Shown: positions 10,472-19,278 of the stretch, piece after piece
Position numbering within the stretch: position 1 is the stretch's first letter
How the letters are laid out: each line of letters starts with the position of its first letter
Origin: Vulcanimicrobiota bacterium
GTDB lineage: Bacteria; Vulcanimicrobiota; Vulcanimicrobiia; Vulcanimicrobiales; Vulcanimicrobiaceae
Assembly (NCBI GenBank): GCA_003161435.1
Contig: PMOS01000012.1
Location: 186,001-250,000 of the forward strand
DNA length: 64,000 bases
Direction of reading: 5' to 3'
The notes under the pieces: generated by a model
Seen by the model: only the letters and a program-made list of their open reading frames with translations
The model's database searches: none
Told to the model about the DNA's origin: nothing
Made by a program: the position numbers and the translations under genes

Positions 10472-10499
10472 ATATCGGACGCGGAAGAGAGCAGGTTTA
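10472..10499 (-). promoter_or_regulatory. Sigma-28-type promoter of flaG-fliD-fliS-fliT
   Basis: On the minus strand TAAACCTG (10492-10499), a 12-base spacer, and TCCGATAT (10472-10479) match the arrangement of the fliC promoter (TAAAGTTC, 12, GCCGAATT). The TAA of the upstream box is also the stop codon of the preceding glycosyltransferase gene. The flaG start is 23 bases downstream. Confidence 0.7.
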
Positions 10500-12461
10500 G
10501 GTGACGGCGGCGACGATCGACGCGTAGGCGCGTACGATGGAGCGCGCTGCGGCAGCCGGCGCGAGCGCCGTCGCGATGTCGGACGGGAGGCGCGCCCCGC
10601 CACGCAACGCCTCGTCCCAGGCTTCGCCGAGCGCCCGGGTGAGCGCGACGGCGTCGGCCGGATCGAAACGGCGCAACGCGACCCCCGGAACGTCGAAGCG
10701 GCGGCGGCCGGCGACGACGAGTTGCGCTCCGGCCAGCACGGCCGCGACCAGCCGCGAACCACCGTCGCCGACCCACGCCGCGTCGACGACCACGCCGGCA
10801 CTCGCCCGCAGCGCGGCCGCCGTGCCGGCGCTCGGTTCACCGGGAAGCACGATCAACCCCGCGCCGCCGAACTCGCGGACGCGCTCGAGATACGACGCGT
10901 CGGCGACCGGACCGGTCAGCACCAGCGGGATCGACGCGTCGGCCGCGCAGCGCGCCACGAGCAGCTGGTTCCATATCGGACCGATCGGCGCGTGCACCAA
11001 GGCGAAGCGGTCGCTGCCGACGAGCCGGCCGATCGGTGACGGATCGGCCTGCGCGGCGAGCGGCACGACGATCTCGATCGGTCCTTTCCGGCCGGTGCGC
11101 TGCCGCAGCGACTCCGCTTCGTCCCACGTCGCCACGAAAACGACCGACGCCTCGCACAACGCGACGGATGCGTCCGCGACGCCGGCCGCATCCGGTGCGT
11201 ACGGTACGTCGGTGCCCACCTCGCCGACGGTGACGGCCCGCTTCGCGAGCAGGCCGAGGTACGTCGCGACGTCGCCCTCATCGCTGCCGTACTCGAAGCA
11301 GTAACGGGTGACTTCGACGCCCCACCAGCCCCCCGCCGCGGCATCTTCGTCGTATGCGTGCACGGCGACCGGAATGCCGGCGCGGCGGGCTTGCTCGACG
11401 ATCGCGCGGACGCGGCGTCCGTCCCGCGTCCCGACGACGTGTACGAGATCCGCGCCGTTCAACTCGTGCGCTGCCGAGTCTGCCGGGGCGTCGAAACCCT
11501 CAGCGCGGAGCGCCGCGATCAGCGCGTCGGCTTCGTCGGTGTCGGCCGACGGACGCAACCGCCCGTCGGCGCGCCCGGCGATGACCGCGATACGTCCCGC
11601 GCTCGACCCGGCCGTTGCGGGCGCACGCGGCGGCGCGACGCGCACGTCCGGCTCGGGCGCTCGTTCGACGGCGAACCAGCGCCGCACGGGTCCTTCCGCC
11701 GGGTCGAAGACGAGCCCGACGTCGAGCGGCAACGGATCGACGACTTCAACCGTAAACGCGCTGGGGTCAGTTCGTCCGAAGTCGGTTGCAGGATCGAGCC
11801 GCAGCACGCACGCGGCGTCGCCGGGATCGGCGCCGGCGTCCAGGATGGCCACCTCCGCTGAGGCGGCCGCAACCGGAGCGTCGCCGTACCAGGCCATTGC
11901 CGCCGCGTCGCGGCGCGAGGCGGCGACGCCGGCCGCGCACAGGCCGCGCAGCAGCGCCCAGCCACCGACGGCATCAGGTGCATCGATCTGAACGGATCGG
12001 CCCCGCACGAAACGGCGTGCATATCGGTAGGGCGCGAGTCGCGTTAGCGAGTGGCGCAGCGGCGCCGCGCCGAAACATCCGACCGCCCGCGCGGCGCGGA
12101 AGCGCGGCGCGGGCGCCAAGAACAAGACGTGCTCCACCACGCGTTCGCCGCGCAAGATCAGGCTCTCGAGGTGCGGCAGAATCCGATCTGCGACGCCCAG
12201 CGCAAAGCGGTCGTCGCCCGGGGTCTCGAACGGAAACACCAGCGGGTCCCGATCGCGGTCGATCACCATCGCCGGGTCGACCAGCACGAGCGGAACGATC
12301 GTGTCACCGTCGTCGCCCGCCAAGTAGAGGTCGAGTGAAAGCGCCGCGCGGCGCTGGCGCAGGACGGGTTCGACGCGCACGGCGGCGAGCCGCGAGGCGT
12401 CGAGCACCGGGGTGCCCGTGCTCCAGGGCGCGATGATCTCGTGGGTGCGATGGCGCCTCAT
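10497..12461 (-). CDS. Large glycosyltransferase-like protein of the flagellin locus
   Basis: A 654-residue protein, poorly conserved to my eye. Residues about 300-650 resemble a degenerate GT-B fold: IAVIAGRADG, LVHVVGTRDGRRVRAIVEQA, then PIWNQLLVARC, GGAGLIVLPGEP and a final VGDGGSRLVAAVLAGAQLVV-type acceptor loop. The N-terminal half is of unknown fold. The ATG overlaps the stop of the 736-residue protein (ATGA). Its place between fliC and flaG suggests a role in flagellin glycosylation. The transferase assignment is moderate and the flagellin link is inferred from context only. Confidence 0.6.
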   Translation of the reverse strand: MRRHRTHEIIAPWSTGTPVLDASRLAAVRVEPVLRQRRAALSLDLYLAGDDGDTIVPLVLVDPAMVIDRDRDPLVFPFETPGDDRFALGVADRILPHLESLILRGERVVEHVLFLAPAPRFRAARAVGCFGAAPLRHSLTRLAPYRYARRFVRGRSVQIDAPDAVGGWALLRGLCAAGVAASRRDAAAMAWYGDAPVAAASAEVAILDAGADPGDAACVLRLDPATDFGRTDPSAFTVEVVDPLPLDVGLVFDPAEGPVRRWFAVERAPEPDVRVAPPRAPATAGSSAGRIAVIAGRADGRLRPSADTDEADALIAALRAEGFDAPADSAAHELNGADLVHVVGTRDGRRVRAIVEQARRAGIPVAVHAYDEDAAAGGWWGVEVTRYCFEYGSDEGDVATYLGLLAKRAVTVGEVGTDVPYAPDAAGVADASVALCEASVVFVATWDEAESLRQRTGRKGPIEIVVPLAAQADPSPIGRLVGSDRFALVHAPIGPIWNQLLVARCAADASIPLVLTGPVADASYLERVREFGGAGLIVLPGEPSAGTAAALRASAGVVVDAAWVGDGGSRLVAAVLAGAQLVVAGRRRFDVPGVALRRFDPADAVALTRALGEAWDEALRGGARLPSDIATALAPAAAARSIVRAYASIVAAVT

Positions 12462-14668
12462 GAGAGGGCCGGCTCCAACAGGTCACCCAGTGCGCGCGCA
12501 TCGACGGCGCGCAGCCCGTCGAGTGCATCGCGTTCGTATCCGGCTGCGACGACGACGCGCTGCCCGGCCTCGCAGTTCGAACGCCATACGGATAGATCGG
12601 CGACCCGCTCGATGCGCACCGCGACCGTTTCGTCGAGCGGCCGTCCGGCCGCGGCCAAGACCGGCCGGACGCGCGCGACGGCGTCGGCCGGCGATACGTC
12701 GCCGTCGAGCAACAGGTGCACGCGAATCGGATCGCCGGCGTCGAACACGGCGGCTACGGCCGCCAAAAATGCGACGGCGCGATCGAGTTCCGCTGCGCCG
12801 GCGACCGGAACGGCAACCGCGTGCGGCCGGTCGGCACGATCGCAACGGTCGCGCGCTCGCGCCGTAGGCGGCGCGTCGCCGAACGGGATACGCGCAAGCG
12901 GGTCGAAGCCGGCTGCGATGCACGCCGGATCTGCCGCGGCGACGCGTTGATGCGTCCCCGCTGCCGCCGCCGGATTGTGTGAGAGCGCCGCGTCGAAGCG
13001 ATGGACCAACGCGTCGTCGCAGCGCACCACCGGATAGCCGGCCGCGCGGAGCTTCGCCACCAAATCCGCGATGCCGCGGCGCGTCGGCCCGAACGCGGGA
13101 TCGATCCCGCCGACCGCGTGCAGCGCTTCACGTGCCACGGCCAGCACCGGCGTAACGGCCGAATCGATCGGCTCCAGGCGATGCGCACGCTCGGCCCGAC
13201 GGCGCTCGGCCAGCGTATGCAACTGGGTGAGGTCGGCGTAGGTCACGTCGGTCACGCCCTCGCCGCCGGTCGCCCCGGGAACGACGGGGAAGGCCGCGCC
13301 GAGTGCCGGGATGCGGCCGAACGCGTCGCGCAACCGATCGAGCGCAGCGGCGGGGACCAGCACGTCGTCGGCGACGAGCACGATCAGCTCGCGCTCCGCC
13401 GCGCCGAGCGCGCGGTTCGCGCCGTCCGTCAGGAGCGGATCGGCGGCGTCGGTTTCGATGCGCAGCTGCGGATACGCAGCGAGAATCCGCCGTGTCGTCT
13501 GCGCACCTTGAGCGCACACGGCGACCAGCTCGTCGTTCACGCGAACGGCCGGTACGACCGCGTCGAGTGTCAGACGCATGATCTCGGGCAACGACGCGGC
13601 TAAAAAGACGATCGTGGCACGGCGCGGGGCCGCCGGTCCGACCGGCGGCGAGGCGTAGCCCGGCGCGCGGACCGCGCGGCGCAGCGCGCTCGCGGCGGTC
13701 GTCAGCGTCGCGAGCGCATCGGACAACGTTGCACCGTCGGCCGTCACGTGTTGGGGGAAACGGCCGAGTGCCAGCAGGACGCAGCGCCCATCGAGCGCCG
13801 CCGCGTCGGGCGCCGACACGGCGACGTACGGTTGCGCTTCGAGCGCCTCGACCAACTTGGCGTACCGGGCCGCGTCCGGCAGCGACGCGCCGTCGGCGAG
13901 CAGCAGATACCGGTCACCGCGCATGCGCATCTCGGCCCGCAACGCCGCGGCCGGATCGTCGACGACGCGCACCGCGGTCCGGGGCGCGAGGTCGCGTGCA
14001 CGACGCGCCGCGAGCTCGGCACCGGGCCCGTGCACCAACACGCACAGCGGCGGCAAAGGTACGCGCACGCGCACGCGGTGACCGACGAGCTCCGGGCGCG
14101 CTTCCGCAATCGCGCGCAGCGCCGCGCTGCGGCCGCGGTCGTCAGGGTCGAGCGCCGGCGCGGTACACCCGAACGACGGACGGCACAGCACCTCGCGACC
14201 GGCAGCGCGGGCGCGCGCGCACAGCTCGAGCGCCGCCGCGACCGGGTCGGCCGGCAGCGGCTCGAGCAGCAAACGCCGGTCGACCAGCAGCATCCCAGGG
14301 GCGACGACGTCGACGTTGCCGCGAATCGCGGCTTCGACACGCGCGTCGCGCGCCGGCGCGACGATCGGCGCGAGCTCGAACGGGAGCGGTCCGCAGCCGG
14401 CGGGCGCCAGCATCCAGCCGAAGAGCCGCGCACCGGCGGCGTGCAGCGCGCCGCCGAGCACGCCGAAACGATCGCCGAGCGTCGACAGTCCGCCCAACGC
14501 GCCCGGCACCGGTCGAGCCCCGGGCGCCAGCAACAGTACGTGAGAACCTGTCGCAGCCCACGCCGCTGCGGCAATGTCGCGCGGTCCGTCGACCGAAACC
14601 ACCGCCAATGCACGGCCACGAGCATCGCCCGGTTCGCTGGCGGGTCCGGCGAGGATCGTGAAACGCAC
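12458..14668 (-). CDS. Large GT2-like glycosyltransferase of the flagellin locus
   Basis: A 736-residue protein. Residues about 350-600 contain a GT2-like domain: ATIVFLAASLPEIMRLTLDA, then LIVLVADDVLVPAAALDRL with the DD acidic pair, and AVGGIDPAFGPTRRGIADL, the usual C-terminal GT2 motif. The first 340 residues resemble a second, worn GT2-type module (LLLAPGARPVPGALGGL). It has no signal peptide or membrane helix. It lies eight bases after the GT2-TPR gene and overlaps the next gene by four bases. Likely role: cytoplasmic modification of flagellin before export; substrate unknown. Confidence 0.65.
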   Translation of the reverse strand: MRFTILAGPASEPGDARGRALAVVSVDGPRDIAAAAWAATGSHVLLLAPGARPVPGALGGLSTLGDRFGVLGGALHAAGARLFGWMLAPAGCGPLPFELAPIVAPARDARVEAAIRGNVDVVAPGMLLVDRRLLLEPLPADPVAAALELCARARAAGREVLCRPSFGCTAPALDPDDRGRSAALRAIAEARPELVGHRVRVRVPLPPLCVLVHGPGAELAARRARDLAPRTAVRVVDDPAAALRAEMRMRGDRYLLLADGASLPDAARYAKLVEALEAQPYVAVSAPDAAALDGRCVLLALGRFPQHVTADGATLSDALATLTTAASALRRAVRAPGYASPPVGPAAPRRATIVFLAASLPEIMRLTLDAVVPAVRVNDELVAVCAQGAQTTRRILAAYPQLRIETDAADPLLTDGANRALGAAERELIVLVADDVLVPAAALDRLRDAFGRIPALGAAFPVVPGATGGEGVTDVTYADLTQLHTLAERRRAERAHRLEPIDSAVTPVLAVAREALHAVGGIDPAFGPTRRGIADLVAKLRAAGYPVVRCDDALVHRFDAALSHNPAAAAGTHQRVAAADPACIAAGFDPLARIPFGDAPPTARARDRCDRADRPHAVAVPVAGAAELDRAVAFLAAVAAVFDAGDPIRVHLLLDGDVSPADAVARVRPVLAAAGRPLDETVAVRIERVADLSVWRSNCEAGQRVVVAAGYERDALDGLRAVDARALGDLLEPALS

Positions 14669-14676
14669 CGCGCCGA

Positions 14677-16653
14677 TCAGTCGAGGACGAACGCGGCGAG
14701 CTTTCCCGCGTCGTCGAACCGGCCTGCCTCGAGCAAAGCGGTCGCCAGTCCGACCGTCGCGTGGCGCAGCGCGTCGTCGTCGCGCGCCGCCAAGCCGCGG
14801 ATGCGCCGCAGCTCCACGATCGCGCCGTCGAGATCGCCCGAGCGACGCAAGATCTCGGCCCGCAAAGCGAACGCCGCGGTCGCGTGCGCGTCGTCGTCGC
14901 CGACGCCCTCGAGGTGCGCGAGCGCCTCGCCGTCGCGCCGCAGTCGTGCCGCCGCGAGCGCGGCGTTGAACGACAGCACGCCGTCGCTCGGCGCGTGCGC
15001 CAGACCCTCGCGGGCGGCGTCCAGCGCATCGTCGAGCCGTCCGTCTTCGAGCAGCCGATAGGAGCGGCGGGCGAAGTCGGCCGCGTCGGCGAGCGGCGCG
15101 TCGAGCTCCGCTTGGCGCAAGCGTTCGCGCTTGGCGCCGTTACCCGCGGCCGCGTACACGCCGTCGAGCAGGCGCAGCACGTGCCCGTTGCCCGGTTCGA
15201 GGGCGAGCGCGCGCAGCGCGAAAGGTTCGGGATCACCGAGCCGCTCATCGCGCGTCGTCTGCGCCGCCGAATACAGCAGTGCCGCATACACATTGTCGGC
15301 GATCGCGTCGCGGCGCTGTTCGACCCGTTCGAACGCCTCGGTGAAGCGCCGCCGGCGCATCAGGTAGTTCACGTACTCGACGAACCCCGGTTGACCGTCG
15401 CGTTCCGAGGCCTCGCGAAACAAACGCTCGGCGTCGTAGAATCGCCCGACTCGTTCGTACGCCGACGCCATCAGCCCGCGCAGCAGCGTCGAGTCCGGCT
15501 TGCTGGCGAACGCGCGCTCGAACCATGGAACCGCTTCGATGAAGCGTTTCTCTTTGACGTAGGTGGTGGCCACGTTGAGCGGCGCCTTCCACGTCCAGAT
15601 CTCGTCGTCGACCATCGAGTGCTGCGCCGCGTTGAACGCGCCGGCCATCACCGCGTCGTACTCGTCCCGAGCTTCATCGAAGCGCCCGAGTTGCGCGAGC
15701 AGGTGCGCGCGCGTGAAGACCACGTTCGGATGGCCGGGGCAATGCGTCAGGCCGTCGTCGAGGATCGCGATCCCGCGCTCGACGTCCTTGCGCCCGTCGG
15801 CGTACGCGCTGGCGAGCATGACGTAGCCGATCGGAAAGAACGCGCGCTGCGGTCCGGGCATCGCGAACATGCGCTCGAGCGCCTCGATCCCGCTCTCGAA
15901 GTCGCCGGCGACGATTGCCGAGATGCCGAAGTTGAACCACGAGAACGCATCGCCGGAAGCCTCGCGGATCGCGCGCTCCAGCAGCGGCTTGTTGCGCTCG
16001 TTCTTCGCCCGGCCGTCCATCATCGCCGCCGTGTAGCCCTTGTGGCGAATCAGGACCGGCGACATGACCGAATACAGGTGCTCCGTGCCGTCGACCACCA
16101 CGCTCTCGTGGATCACGTTGCGGTAGCGGATCCGCGGGGTGGTGGGAAAGATGCGAGCCAGCACGTGCGTCATGGTCGACGCGGCGCCGGAGGCGTCGTC
16201 GACGAGGTTCTGGATCCGCACGTAGACGCCGGTCAGGTCCGCCGGCGTCTCGCGCAATGCGCGCAGCAGCGAGAGCGATTCAGGGGCGATCTCCTCGTCC
16301 GCATCGAGCACCAACGTCCAGCGACGCGTCGCGAGCGCCAACGACTCGTTGCGCGCCCAGCCGAAGTCGTCGCGCCAGGCGCGAAAGATGACGTTGGCGC
16401 CGAACTCGAGAGCGATCTCGACGGTCCGGTCGCTCGATCCAGTGTCGACGATGTTGATCTCGTCGACGACGTCGCGGACGCTGCGCAGACAGTCCGCCAA
16501 GAACCGCTCTTCGTTCTTGACGATCATGCACAAGCTGATTCCGACGGGCAGTTGCTCGCAATCGACCGGCGGCGCCGGGAGGTTGAACAGCAGCCCGGTC
16601 TGGGCGCGCGCGAACGCGCTATCCCGATAGTCGTCGACGATCTCTAGCGGCAA
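14677..16653 (-). CDS. GT2 glycosyltransferase with TPR repeats
   Basis: A clear GT2 domain opens the protein (ISLCMIVKNEERFLADCLRS, VDTGSSDRTVEIA, WTLVLDADEEI), followed by about 400 residues of TPR-like helix pairs. This is the architecture of GT2-TPR transferases that modify proteins. The frame is open back into fliC, but the fliC terminator at 16711-16749 excludes that start. The TTG at 16653 has AGAGG six bases upstream and is preferred (658 residues); GTG 16686 is an alternative. It is the first of three transferase genes directly after fliC, so flagellin is the likely acceptor. The leader shares motifs with that of fliC. Confidence 0.82.
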   Translation of the reverse strand: MPLEIVDDYRDSAFARAQTGLLFNLPAPPVDCEQLPVGISLCMIVKNEERFLADCLRSVRDVVDEINIVDTGSSDRTVEIALEFGANVIFRAWRDDFGWARNESLALATRRWTLVLDADEEIAPESLSLLRALRETPADLTGVYVRIQNLVDDASGAASTMTHVLARIFPTTPRIRYRNVIHESVVVDGTEHLYSVMSPVLIRHKGYTAAMMDGRAKNERNKPLLERAIREASGDAFSWFNFGISAIVAGDFESGIEALERMFAMPGPQRAFFPIGYVMLASAYADGRKDVERGIAILDDGLTHCPGHPNVVFTRAHLLAQLGRFDEARDEYDAVMAGAFNAAQHSMVDDEIWTWKAPLNVATTYVKEKRFIEAVPWFERAFASKPDSTLLRGLMASAYERVGRFYDAERLFREASERDGQPGFVEYVNYLMRRRRFTEAFERVEQRRDAIADNVYAALLYSAAQTTRDERLGDPEPFALRALALEPGNGHVLRLLDGVYAAAGNGAKRERLRQAELDAPLADAADFARRSYRLLEDGRLDDALDAAREGLAHAPSDGVLSFNAALAAARLRRDGEALAHLEGVGDDDAHATAAFALRAEILRRSGDLDGAIVELRRIRGLAARDDDALRHATVGLATALLEAGRFDDAGKLAAFVLD

Positions 16654-16669
16654 AGCGTACCTCTGTAGC

Positions 16670-16704
16670 AGAGTGCTTTCCAGCACCCTGTTAGTGATAT
16701 CGGA
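16670..16704 (-). promoter_or_regulatory. Leader of GT2-TPR gene: -10-like box and GGA hairpin
   Basis: On the minus strand TCCGATAT (16697-16704) is followed by CACTAACAGGGTGCTGGAAAGCACTCT. The bases GTGCT-GGAA-AGCAC form a 5-bp hairpin with GGA in the loop, the usual presentation of a CsrA site. The 12-mer GGAAAGCACTCT (16670-16681) also occurs in the fliC leader (18047-18058). TCCGATAT equals the flaG -10 box, but no TAAA box is present at the right distance, so promoter activity is uncertain. Confidence 0.45.
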
Positions 16705-16710
16705 CGGCGC

Positions 16711-16749
16711 GAGAAAAAAGCGAGAGGGCTCGCCGGAGCGAGCCCTCTC
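16711..16749 (-). terminator. Intrinsic terminator of fliC
   Basis: A perfect 12-bp inverted repeat (16722-16733 with 16738-16749, loop of four bases) is followed on the minus strand by CTTTTTTC. It lies 22 bases after the fliC stop codon. It separates fliC from the downstream glycosyltransferases, so these are reached by readthrough or by their own promoter. Confidence 0.93.
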
Positions 16750-16771
16750 ATAAGCCAGAGCCGAGTCAGGA

Positions 16772-18013
16772 TCAGCGGAAGAGGCTGACCACCGACTGTG
16801 CGTTCTGGTTTGCCTGAGCCAGGACCGACGTACCGACCTGCACCAGGATCTGATCCCTGGTGTAGGCGGTCGTCTCGGCACCGACGTTGAGGTCGCGAAT
16901 CGCGGACTCGGACGCCGTCAGATTGACTGAAGCCGTCGTGTCGTTGCTCTGGTCTTCCTGCAGGCGGACGATCGTCGCGCCGAGCTGTGCGCGCTGCGCG
17001 AGTACGCTCTGGAGCGCGTTGTCGATCTGCCCGATCGAGTCCTCGGCCGCGAGCGAGCCGTTCGGGAAGGTCCCGGCGGCACCGGCCGGCCCGATCAGGT
17101 TGACGTTCGCGATGCGCAGCGAGGACGTCGACGTGTCGATGAAGCCGACTTGGATCGTCGCGCCTTCCGAAGCGCCCGACTGGAAGTTGAACGCCGGCGA
17201 GTTCGGGTTCGAGGCAGCGGCCACGAACTGGCTGATCTTGAGGAACGAGGTGACTCCGACGTCGAGCGTTCCCGCCACGCCGAACCCGATCGTGACCCCG
17301 TCGACGACGGTGGCCGCGGCGGACGTGCCGGCGGTCAGCGTGATCGTCGAGATGGCAACCGTGTTCGCCGAGCTGTTGAAGAACGAGACGATGAGCCCCT
17401 GCGTGCTCGAGTTCAGCTGAGCGACCTGGACTTCGATCGTTCCGTCCGCGACCGTCGCGTTCGATGCGGTCGCAGCGAACGAGATCTGGGTCGGATCGAT
17501 CAGCGTGCCGCCGCCTGCGAGGTCGGCGTTCGACGTCACGACGGCGTTCACGTCGACTTCCTGCTGGAAGCCGGCATGCGAACCGTCGAGCAGGTTCTGC
17601 CCGTTGAAGTTCGTGTTCTGCGAGATGCGGTTGACTTCGAGCAGCAGCTGCTGCACTTCATCTTGCAGGTTGGTGCGGTCGTTCGTCGACGTGATGTCGG
17701 ACGCGCCCTCGACCGCGAGAGTGCGGATGCGCTGCAGGATGTCGGTCGTCGTCGAGAGCGCGCCTTCGGCGACTTGCGCCGCGTTGGTCGCGTCTTGGAC
17801 GTTCTGCGCGCCCTGGTCGAAGCCGTTGACCTGCGCTTGCAGGGATTCGGCGATCGCGAGGCCCGACGGATCGTCGGCCGCGGTGTTGATGCGAAGACCG
17901 CTGGACAGCCGGTCTACGGCGGTTCCGAGGGCCTGCTGGTTTCGATTCAGGTTGAGACTTGCTTGATTCGCCAACAGATTGTTGGCGATTGAAAGCCCAC
18001 CAATGCCGGACAT
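16772..18013 (-). CDS. fliC: Flagellin
   Basis: A 413-residue flagellin. The N-terminal D0/D1 part has ANNLLANQASLNLNRNQQAL and DRLSSGLRINTAADDPSGLA. The C-terminal part has LTASESAIRDLNVGAETTAY and ends in NQNAQSVVSLFR. The central about 170 residues are variable, Ser/Thr-rich, and a plausible target of O-glycosylation. The start ATG has GGAGGA five bases upstream. Transcription is from a sigma-28-type promoter at 18077-18104, and a strong terminator follows. With fliW and csrA immediately upstream, translation is probably under CsrA control at the GGA sites of the leader. Confidence 0.97.
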   Translation of the reverse strand: MSGIGGLSIANNLLANQASLNLNRNQQALGTAVDRLSSGLRINTAADDPSGLAIAESLQAQVNGFDQGAQNVQDATNAAQVAEGALSTTTDILQRIRTLAVEGASDITSTNDRTNLQDEVQQLLLEVNRISQNTNFNGQNLLDGSHAGFQQEVDVNAVVTSNADLAGGGTLIDPTQISFAATASNATVADGTIEVQVAQLNSSTQGLIVSFFNSSANTVAISTITLTAGTSAAATVVDGVTIGFGVAGTLDVGVTSFLKISQFVAAASNPNSPAFNFQSGASEGATIQVGFIDTSTSSLRIANVNLIGPAGAAGTFPNGSLAAEDSIGQIDNALQSVLAQRAQLGATIVRLQEDQSNDTTASVNLTASESAIRDLNVGAETTAYTRDQILVQVGTSVLAQANQNAQSVVSLFR

Positions 18014-18060
18014 GTGTTTCCTCCGTGATCACACGCGTGTAGAACGAGAGTGCTTTCCGA
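18014..18060 (-). promoter_or_regulatory. fliC leader with probable CsrA sites
   Basis: The leader RNA contains GGA three times: in GGGAGGA, in a loop of GAGT-CGGAAAGC-ACTC (18045-18060 region), and in the ribosome binding site ACGGAGGA. CsrA dimers usually bridge one hairpin-loop GGA and the one at the Shine-Dalgarno. The DNA also shows adjacent palindromes GTGATCAC and ACACGCGTGT (18025-18040) of unknown meaning. The binding is inferred from sequence and gene context. Confidence 0.55.
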
Positions 18061-18076
18061 CTCGTCCTCCCTTGCT

Positions 18077-18104
18077 AATTCGGCGACATGATTGCCGAAC
18101 TTTA
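18077..18104 (-). promoter_or_regulatory. Sigma-28-type promoter of fliC
   Basis: On the minus strand TAAAGTTC (18097-18104), 12 bases, then GCCGAATT (18077-18084). This closely follows the FliA consensus (TAAAGTTT, 11 bases, GCCGATAA) with one extra spacer base. The flagellin start codon is 64 bases beyond the -10 box. Confidence 0.85.
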
Positions 18105-18112
18105 GCCGTTAC

Positions 18113-18442
18113 CGCCTCCGCTTCGCTGCGCTCCGCTACGGCAGGATGGAACGCCTCCGCTGCGCGGAGGACCTGAGATTGCGCTCCGCTCCACTACGTC
18201 CTGATGAGGGCGCCGCGCTTCGCGACGGGCCTCCGCTGCGCTACCGCTCCGCGGAGGCGCTCCGCGTGGTCGAAGGGGAGATATCCTTCGTGCCGTAGCG
18301 CGAGCGCGTCGGCGAGCGGTGCGAAGCGCCTCCGCGGAGCGGAGGCCCCTCGCGAAGCGCGGCGCCCTCCTTACGGCCGAAGCGGAGCCGACCGTAGCGG
18401 AGCGAAGCGGAGCCTTCCTTCATGCCGTAGCGAAGCGGAGGC
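18113..18442. repeat. Nested imperfect palindrome between csrA and fliC
   Basis: This stretch of about 330 bases has no gene. CGCCTCCGCTTCGCT with CTACGGCA (18113-18145) reappears inverted at 18418-18442. An inner pair of about 30 bases, GAGGGCGCCGCGCTTCGCGA then GGGCCTCCGCT (18206-18238), is inverted at 18330-18371. Many short CTCCGCT/AGCGGAG units fill the arms. It could act as a structured terminator between csrA and fliC, or be a repeat insertion. Confidence 0.75.
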
Positions 18443-18471
18443 GTTTGCGGCGCAGCGACGCGGAGGCGACT

Positions 18472-18732
18472 CTACTCCTTAGGGGTGCTGCGCCGCGTCT
18501 TCGAGAGGTCGGCGACTTTTGCGCGCTCGGCCGCGGGTTTGGGCTGCGGGTCGCCGACGGCGGCGCGATTGGTGCGCTGGATCTCGTCGTACACCTCGGA
18601 GCGGTGCACCGGGATCGTCCGCGGCGCTTCGATCCCCAGCTTCACGGTATCGCGATCGACCGCGACGACGACGATTCGGACGTCGTCACCGATCATGATC
18701 GCTTGATTGAGCTTTCGGCTGAGGACTAGCAG
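18472..18732 (-). CDS. csrA: Carbon storage regulator CsrA, with CTG start
   Basis: The translated sequence [20 protein letters not shown] is a textbook CsrA N terminus if the first codon, CTG at 18732, is read as Met (family: MLVLSRK). GGAGGG ends four bases upstream of this CTG. No ATG, GTG or TTG is in frame upstream; the first ATG is internal at residue 14 and would delete beta strand 1. The protein would be 86 residues, with an unusually long Lys/Arg/Pro-rich tail after VYDEIQRTN. CsrA dimers bind GGA in mRNA leaders, classically flagellin mRNA. It lies between fliW and fliC, the standard FliW-CsrA-flagellin module. Confidence 0.9.
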
Positions 18733-18734
18733 GA

Positions 18735-18762
18735 CGCCCTCCGTGGCTAAAGACGGAGGGCG
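18735..18762 (-). promoter_or_regulatory. RNA hairpin covering the csrA ribosome binding site
   Basis: A perfect 10-bp inverted repeat CGCCCTCCGT/ACGGAGGGCG with an 8-base loop lies directly before csrA. The 3' arm in the RNA contains the GGAGGG site. Folding would block csrA translation. There is no U tract, so it is less like a terminator. It may give translational control of csrA or coupling to fliW translation. Confidence 0.7.
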
Positions 18763-18780: not shown

Positions 18781-19278
18781 CTAGGCTCCCGCCGTCGCGG
18801 CGGGGGCTTTGCGCGGGATCGGAGTCCGGACCGAGTAGCCCCCGGTTTCGAGGGTCACTTGCCGGCCGGTCCGCGTGCGCAGGTTGACCACGATCGGGGC
18901 CAGCAGGTTCATCGTCATCTCGGCGGCGCCGGGGCTGACCACCACGACGCAGAGCGTCGCGAAGTCCTCGGGCCGGCCCAGGTCCAGCGAGCTGGTCGCG
19001 TAGGGCGGAAGCCTCGGCGCGTACTCGGGGAAGATCTGCCAGGGATCGGCGGCCGGCAAGGCGATCGCCGGGTCGTCGAGGCTTTGCAGCCAGACGAACC
19101 GCTCTTGGCCTTCGAGATTCAGCGCGATGAAGCGCCGCAGCAAGGCGAAGCCCGGCAACCCCCAGGGGAAGTCGAGAACCTCGGATTCTCGGTACGAGCA
19201 GGTGCCGAATCGAGGCAGGTTCACGGTCACGATTCGGTCGGCGGACTCCACGGTCGTCTCCGTAACGCTCAAAGTCAT
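18781..19278 (-). CDS. fliW: Flagellar assembly factor FliW
   Basis: A 165-residue FliW: ESEVLDFPWGLPGFALLRRF, LQSLDDPAIALPAADPW and a C-terminal NLLAPIVVNLRTRTGRQV, all family hallmarks. FliW binds either free flagellin or CsrA. When flagellin is exported, the released FliW inhibits CsrA and lets flagellin translation proceed. It starts three bases before the flgL stop region and precedes csrA. The normal length is about 150, so a 15-residue tail is extra. Confidence 0.94.
   Translation of the reverse strand: MTLSVTETTVESADRIVTVNLPRFGTCSYRESEVLDFPWGLPGFALLRRFIALNLEGQERFVWLQSLDDPAIALPAADPWQIFPEYAPRLPPYATSSLDLGRPEDFATLCVVVVSPGAAEMTMNLLAPIVVNLRTRTGRQVTLETGGYSVRTPIPRKAPAATAGA

Follow-up and report, generated by a model that had tools for sequence, protein, structure and literature searches.

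A predicted CsrA-FliW-type flagellin leader in Candidatus Eremiobacterota and its 12-mer in common with a glycosyltransferase leader

CsrA prefers GGA in the loops of hairpins, and species of the FliW type repress flagellin via CsrA. In Campylobacter jejuni the flaA leader forms two stem-loops, each with ANGGA in its loop, and stem-loop 2 covers the ribosome site; compensatory changes attest to conservation of the structure, and FliW antagonizes CsrA (PMC4894983). From the same work, CANGGANG is the high-affinity loop consensus of CsrA/RsmE, and the targets bound by C. jejuni CsrA include flaA and the flagellin-glycan gene pseB, whereas the flagellin-modification gene Cj1324 is not bound (PMC4894983). 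The leaders of Bacillus subtilis hag and Clostridioides difficile fliC contain two CsrA sites (BS1 and BS2) in organisms with both fliW and csrA; the predicted BS2 of C. difficile fliC is CTAAGGAGGG, located at the GGAGG site (PMC8523840, PMC6529632).

We have compared these systems with a fliC locus in a stretch of 64,000 nucleotides (the window) from a soil bacterium whose relatives, found by protein similarity, belong to the little-studied phylum Candidatus Eremiobacterota. A first-pass annotation of the window had proposed that fliC and an adjoining glycosyltransferase gene have a leader hairpin in common through which CsrA and FliW control both. We consider it probable that the fliC leader is a flagellin leader under control of the CsrA-FliW type and that the 12-mer found before the glycosyltransferase gene is not a working CsrA site. 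The fliC half of this reading would extend the CsrA-FliW flagellin switch to Candidatus Eremiobacterota; our search of the literature found no report joining Eremiobacterota and CsrA.

Promoter and stem-loops of the fliC leader

The gene order on the minus strand of the window is fliW, csrA, fliC, a terminator and the glycosyltransferase gene, here called GT2-TPR (these genes and all promoter, leader and terminator elements given below lie on that strand). Directly upstream of fliC are fliW (18781-19278; Pfam FliW PF02623, E 1.6e-33) and csrA (18472-18732, 86 aa; Pfam CsrA PF02599, E 3.2e-23), and in relatives csrA is likewise found immediately 5' of flagellin. The window CsrA matches PDB entries 1t3o (1e-15) and 5dmb (4e-15), with the conserved VHR region aligned. 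fliC itself (16772-18013) encodes 413 aa with matches to Pfam Flagellin_N (2.2e-38) and Flagellin_C (3.7e-15), and its start codon is the ATG at 18013-18011. A putative sigma-28 (FliA)-type promoter, TAAAGTT-N13-GCCGAATT, was read from the sequence at 18077-18104; TAAAGT and CCGA elements were found again upstream of the flagellin genes of relatives.

Two stem-loops are predicted in the leader. Stem-loop 1 (18041-18068), drawn from folds, relatives and covariation, has GGA in its loop. Folded alone it takes the form GAGUC-GGAAA-G-c-ACUC (-3.3 kcal/mol), and folded in the whole leader it has an 8-bp stem and a 12-nt loop. Stem-loop 2 (18010-18036), drawn from folds and from the presence of CANGGAGG in relatives, holds the ribosome site in its loop and the AUG in its 3' arm; the loop includes CACGGAGG (18020-18027), which matches CANGGANG. 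The folding energy of the leader as a whole is ordinary (z -0.24) and an Rfam search of the window gave no matches.

This arrangement resembles that of C. jejuni flaA in having two stem-loops, GGA in loop 1 and the ribosome site in loop 2. It differs, in an organism of a different phylum, in that loop 1 of the window reads GGAAA and that the two GGA sites are approximately 34 nt apart, as against 21 nt in flaA. As in B. subtilis hag and C. difficile fliC there are two sites in the flagellin leader, one of them at a GGAGG, a likeness drawn without sequence alignment; unlike those leaders, the fliC leader of the window has a hairpin of a covarying type right behind the sigma-28 promoter. By the features testable here, the fliC locus would seem to belong to the CsrA-FliW flagellin system.

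A plausible scenario is that the sigma-28 promoter starts the fliC mRNA just 5' of stem-loop 1, whose loop would present GGA, and that stem-loop 2 would present CACGGAGG, which doubles as the ribosome site. If the mechanism follows that of Bacillus and Campylobacter, a dimer of CsrA would then span the two sites and keep ribosomes off, and FliW, freed from flagellin during export, would remove CsrA. CsrA-FliW control of flagellin through the predicted sites has good support from the gene neighborhood and from the comparison of leaders given below; CsrA binding, translational repression and FliW antagonism at this leader are what we infer from the described systems.

Conservation of the hairpin and of the ribosome-site signature

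Support for the first stem-loop comes from 42 flagellin leaders. Beside those in the genome of the window, they include leaders from relatives in its genus and family, in another family of the same order and in one family elsewhere in the phylum. The leader typical of the genus reads AGGACGGGUC-AGGAA-GCACCCGUC, followed by GUGUGAUCAUGGAGGAAACACAUG. In other genera the arms are different and the loop is alike (GGGAGAC-AGGAU-GUCUUUC, AGGGAGC-AGGAC-GCUUCCU and CAGGUAC-AUGGAUG-GUACCUG, among others). With the last 18 nt of each leader (the ribosome site) excluded from the count, a hairpin with GGA in its loop and a stem of at least 5 bp was found in 35 of the 42 leaders, which as related sequences are not independent events, compared with 4.6 +/- 2.0 (maximum 10) in dinucleotide shuffles. 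Among ten gap-free hairpins of equal length, which were chosen and trimmed by hand in a way that favors the structure, 92.9% of cells pair and six of seven pairs show changes on both sides; none of 500 shuffles matched this covariation score, and structures slid along the same sequences pair at 47-63%. One relative (G028) has kept the hairpin and lost its GGA. Taken as a predicted structure, then, a promoter-proximal hairpin with an A(N)GGA loop is conserved and covarying in the flagellin leaders of the phylum. The window has a weak member of this family: its stem-loop 1 fails the 5-bp hairpin test and its loop reads CGGAAA, without ANGGA. The fliC string that had been noticed earlier thus belongs to a conserved element without being typical of it, since its GGAAA loop has diverged from the AGGAA of the genus. 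In one relative (L049, G015:C3) two flagellin genes stand in tandem, and each leader has a GGA-loop hairpin of its own (AGGAC and AUGGAU).

The ribosome site carries a signature of its own. CANGGAGG, with A, C or T as N, lies at the Shine-Dalgarno site in 41 of the 42 flagellin leaders; in the 42nd (L071) the start picked by our script is internal to the gene, and CCACGGAGGG stands before the ATG. Among 44 other open reading frames with a GGAGG site at the loci examined, ten have CANGGAGG, namely nine csrA genes and one flagellin gene missed by our filter, and none of the remaining 34 sites, which belong neither to csrA nor to flagellin, has it. Within the ribosome sites checked, this predicted CsrA signature is therefore restricted to flagellin and csrA. 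Together with the rare csrA start codons discussed below, it leads to simple, testable predictions.

The genome of the window also has two copies of a second flagellin family, in which the ribosome site lies within a CTTCC-ANGGAG-GGAAG hairpin. This pattern gave 11 matches in 60 genomes, ten of them in the same genus, and the reversed control gave none. The family comprises L070 and L071 (G000:C1 ~5970 and G000:C37 ~2507) and L072-L078, with a CTTCC-A(C/T/A)GGAG-GGAAG hexaloop, and its leaders often have extra upstream hairpins such as GCCC-AGGGAC-GGGC.

The glycosyltransferase leader and the 12-mer

The GT2-TPR gene (14677-16653; Pfam Glycos_transf_2 3.4e-21 and TPR) most likely starts at the TTG at 16653-16651, behind the ribosome site AGAGG (16664-16660), since its orthologues have a GTG or ATG start there, mostly behind a ribosome site. 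An in-frame upstream GTG at the hairpin, which would make the 12-mer coding, was rejected; no ribosome site lies at a suitable distance before it, and the starts of the orthologues disagree with it. Between fliC and the GT2-TPR gene there is an intrinsic terminator (16721-16750), seen as a hairpin and then a T run in most relatives. It is followed by TCCGATAT (16697-16704), a sigma-28-like -10 element, and by a 9-bp hairpin with a GGAA loop (16669-16690), which we assessed by folds and by comparison with orthologues. This hairpin, CAGGGUGCU-GGAA-AGCACUCUG, has a predicted energy of -17.6 kcal/mol over 41 nt (z -3.1). The GT2-TPR gene is followed (10497-14668) by two large open reading frames of 736 and 654 aa that overlap by 4 bases and have no Pfam matches; they are likely in one operon with it.

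As the first-pass annotation had stated, the 12-mer GGAAAGCACTCT is present in both leaders, at 18047-18058 before fliC and at 16670-16681 before the GT2-TPR gene. Had the 12-mer been frequent at random positions of the genome, the annotation's idea of joint control would by its own terms have been refuted; in 3,833,552 bases, where a random 12-mer is expected approximately 0.5 times, pattern search found these two copies only, and the reversed-pattern control found none (our genome-wide statements rest on pattern and protein searches). The claim of a common hairpin motif stood in part. Folding places the GGA in a hairpin loop at both leaders, but the two stems use the letters of the 12-mer differently: in fliC, GAGU is paired with ACUC and AGC stays at the loop, whereas in the GT leader AGCACUCUG lies wholly in the 3' arm of the 9-bp stem. 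The string is common to both leaders and the hairpin is not.

For the comparison with orthologues we used 19 GT2-TPR leaders (our own and 18 others), cut after the T run of the terminator where one was present. Neither the 9-bp hairpin nor the 12-mer was found in any of the 18 orthologous leaders, which makes the hairpin specific to this species in a comparison of one genome per species, and GGA is absent altogether from ten of the 19 leaders. The GT leader of the window has a single GGA, in the GGAA tetraloop and in the context GCUGGAAAGC, without ANGGA in the loop; it has no second GGA site and no CANGGA at its AGAGG ribosome site. Of the proposed CsrA-FliW control over both genes, the fliC part is favored by the adjoining fliW and csrA, the covarying hairpin and CANGGAGG, and the GT part found no support. 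CsrA control of the GT gene may be occasional, with relative G002, whose GT leader forms a 5-bp hairpin with a loop that contains ACGGA, as a candidate example.

Three explanations for the 12-mer have to be weighed, and the chance figures that bear on them should be read with the knowledge that this pair of leaders was picked after the fact. A 12-mer is shared by 0.19% of random same-strand window pairs of equal length, compared with 0.015% of shuffled leaders. Local alignment of the two leaders runs through the 12-mer, a 3-nt gap and CTACA (score 25), a score reached by 67 of 60,000 dinucleotide shuffles (0.11%) and by 1,906 of 150,000 random window pairs (1.3%). Because random window pairs score as well this often, and because the pair was picked afterwards, we regard the match as suggestive, weakly beyond chance, and not compelling. 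Pure coincidence, a match with neither history nor function, comes close to an even chance in our judgement, as numerous other pairs of leaders might have caught the eye in the same way; what speaks against it is that the leaders belong to adjacent, functionally linked genes and that the distance to the promoter element is similar in both (15-18 nt from a sigma-28-like -10 element to the 12-mer). A serious but more tentative possibility is that the GT hairpin is a short copy of the stem-loop 1 sequence without a regulatory role, or a hairpin that stabilizes the 5' end. The low frequency of the score among shuffles and the greater length of the GT leader in the window than in relatives are consistent with copying, as is a genome search with a 20-mer of the hairpin that found, at up to 3 mismatches, the hairpin itself alone and no dispersed repeat. 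On the other hand, the 5' arms of the two hairpins have nothing in common, and the 1.3% of random pairs makes chance a fair alternative.

Joint control, in which CsrA and FliW would match modification to substrate through the hairpin motif, we consider unlikely. It can draw on the confinement of the 12-mer to two places in the genome, on its similar position behind the -10 element, on the further CTACA of the alignment and on C. jejuni, where CsrA binds both flaA and pseB (PMC4894983). pseB shows by experiment that CsrA can control a flagellin-glycan gene; it is a sugar biosynthesis gene, and the GT2-TPR leader of the window is without the conserved signature. The different pairing register, the orthologous leaders without the hairpin and often without GGA, the lack of an A two bases ahead of the one GGA and the lack of a second site at the ribosome site all argue against joint control. 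Similarly improbable is a recent gain, by the GT leader of this one species, of a hairpin that responds to CsrA and is related to stem-loop 1 of flagellin. If true, such a gain would place flagellin and the enzyme that modifies it under one common post-transcriptional switch, and this in a genus where a CUG or AUU start and a ribosome-site hairpin would themselves keep csrA low.

We therefore favor the reading in which the GT 12-mer belongs to a species-specific hairpin, arisen by coincidence or as a short local copy, and the GT2-TPR gene would more likely be tied to flagellin by neighborhood and a sigma-28-like promoter. A GCCGATA-like element is present in 18 of the 19 GT leaders, in the genus form GTCCGATA or GCGCCGATA, although no clear TAAA -35 was seen. 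Given the ten leaders without GGA, the species-specific hairpin and this -10-like element in 18 leaders, a common sigma-28-type promoter, though unproven, is the likelier and more economical link between the two genes than CsrA. In relatives with both genes on the contig the GT2-TPR gene adjoins flagellin, an arrangement that suggests, by association, a role of GT2-TPR on flagellin.

The start of csrA

The rare start codon of csrA is the most unusual feature near the fliC locus. In the genus (the window, 18730-18762, and L033-L036, L038, L039, L041 and L046), the codon at the conserved start (MLVLSRK) is CTG in the window, at 18732-18730, and in five other species; the remaining three have ATT (G007), GTG (G010) and TTG (G004). 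Nearly all sequences from other genera have ATG. In L033, L035 and L038 the stretch from the preceding stop to the CTG contains no alternative start codon of the usual kinds. The csrA ribosome site of the window is predicted to lie in the 3' arm of a hairpin, CGCCCTCCGT-CTTTAGCC-ACGGAGGGCG (18735-18762), and folds predict a similarly strong hairpin pairing this site for most other members of the genus. Unlike C. jejuni, the csrA gene of the window combines a CTG start with a CANGGAGG of its own; the latter signature suggests that CsrA may also limit its own synthesis.

The gap between csrA and fliC is far shorter in relatives than in the window, where approximately 350 bases (18110-18470) are dense with interleaved GC-rich inverted and direct repeats of the CCTCCGCTTCGCTGCGCTCCGCT type.
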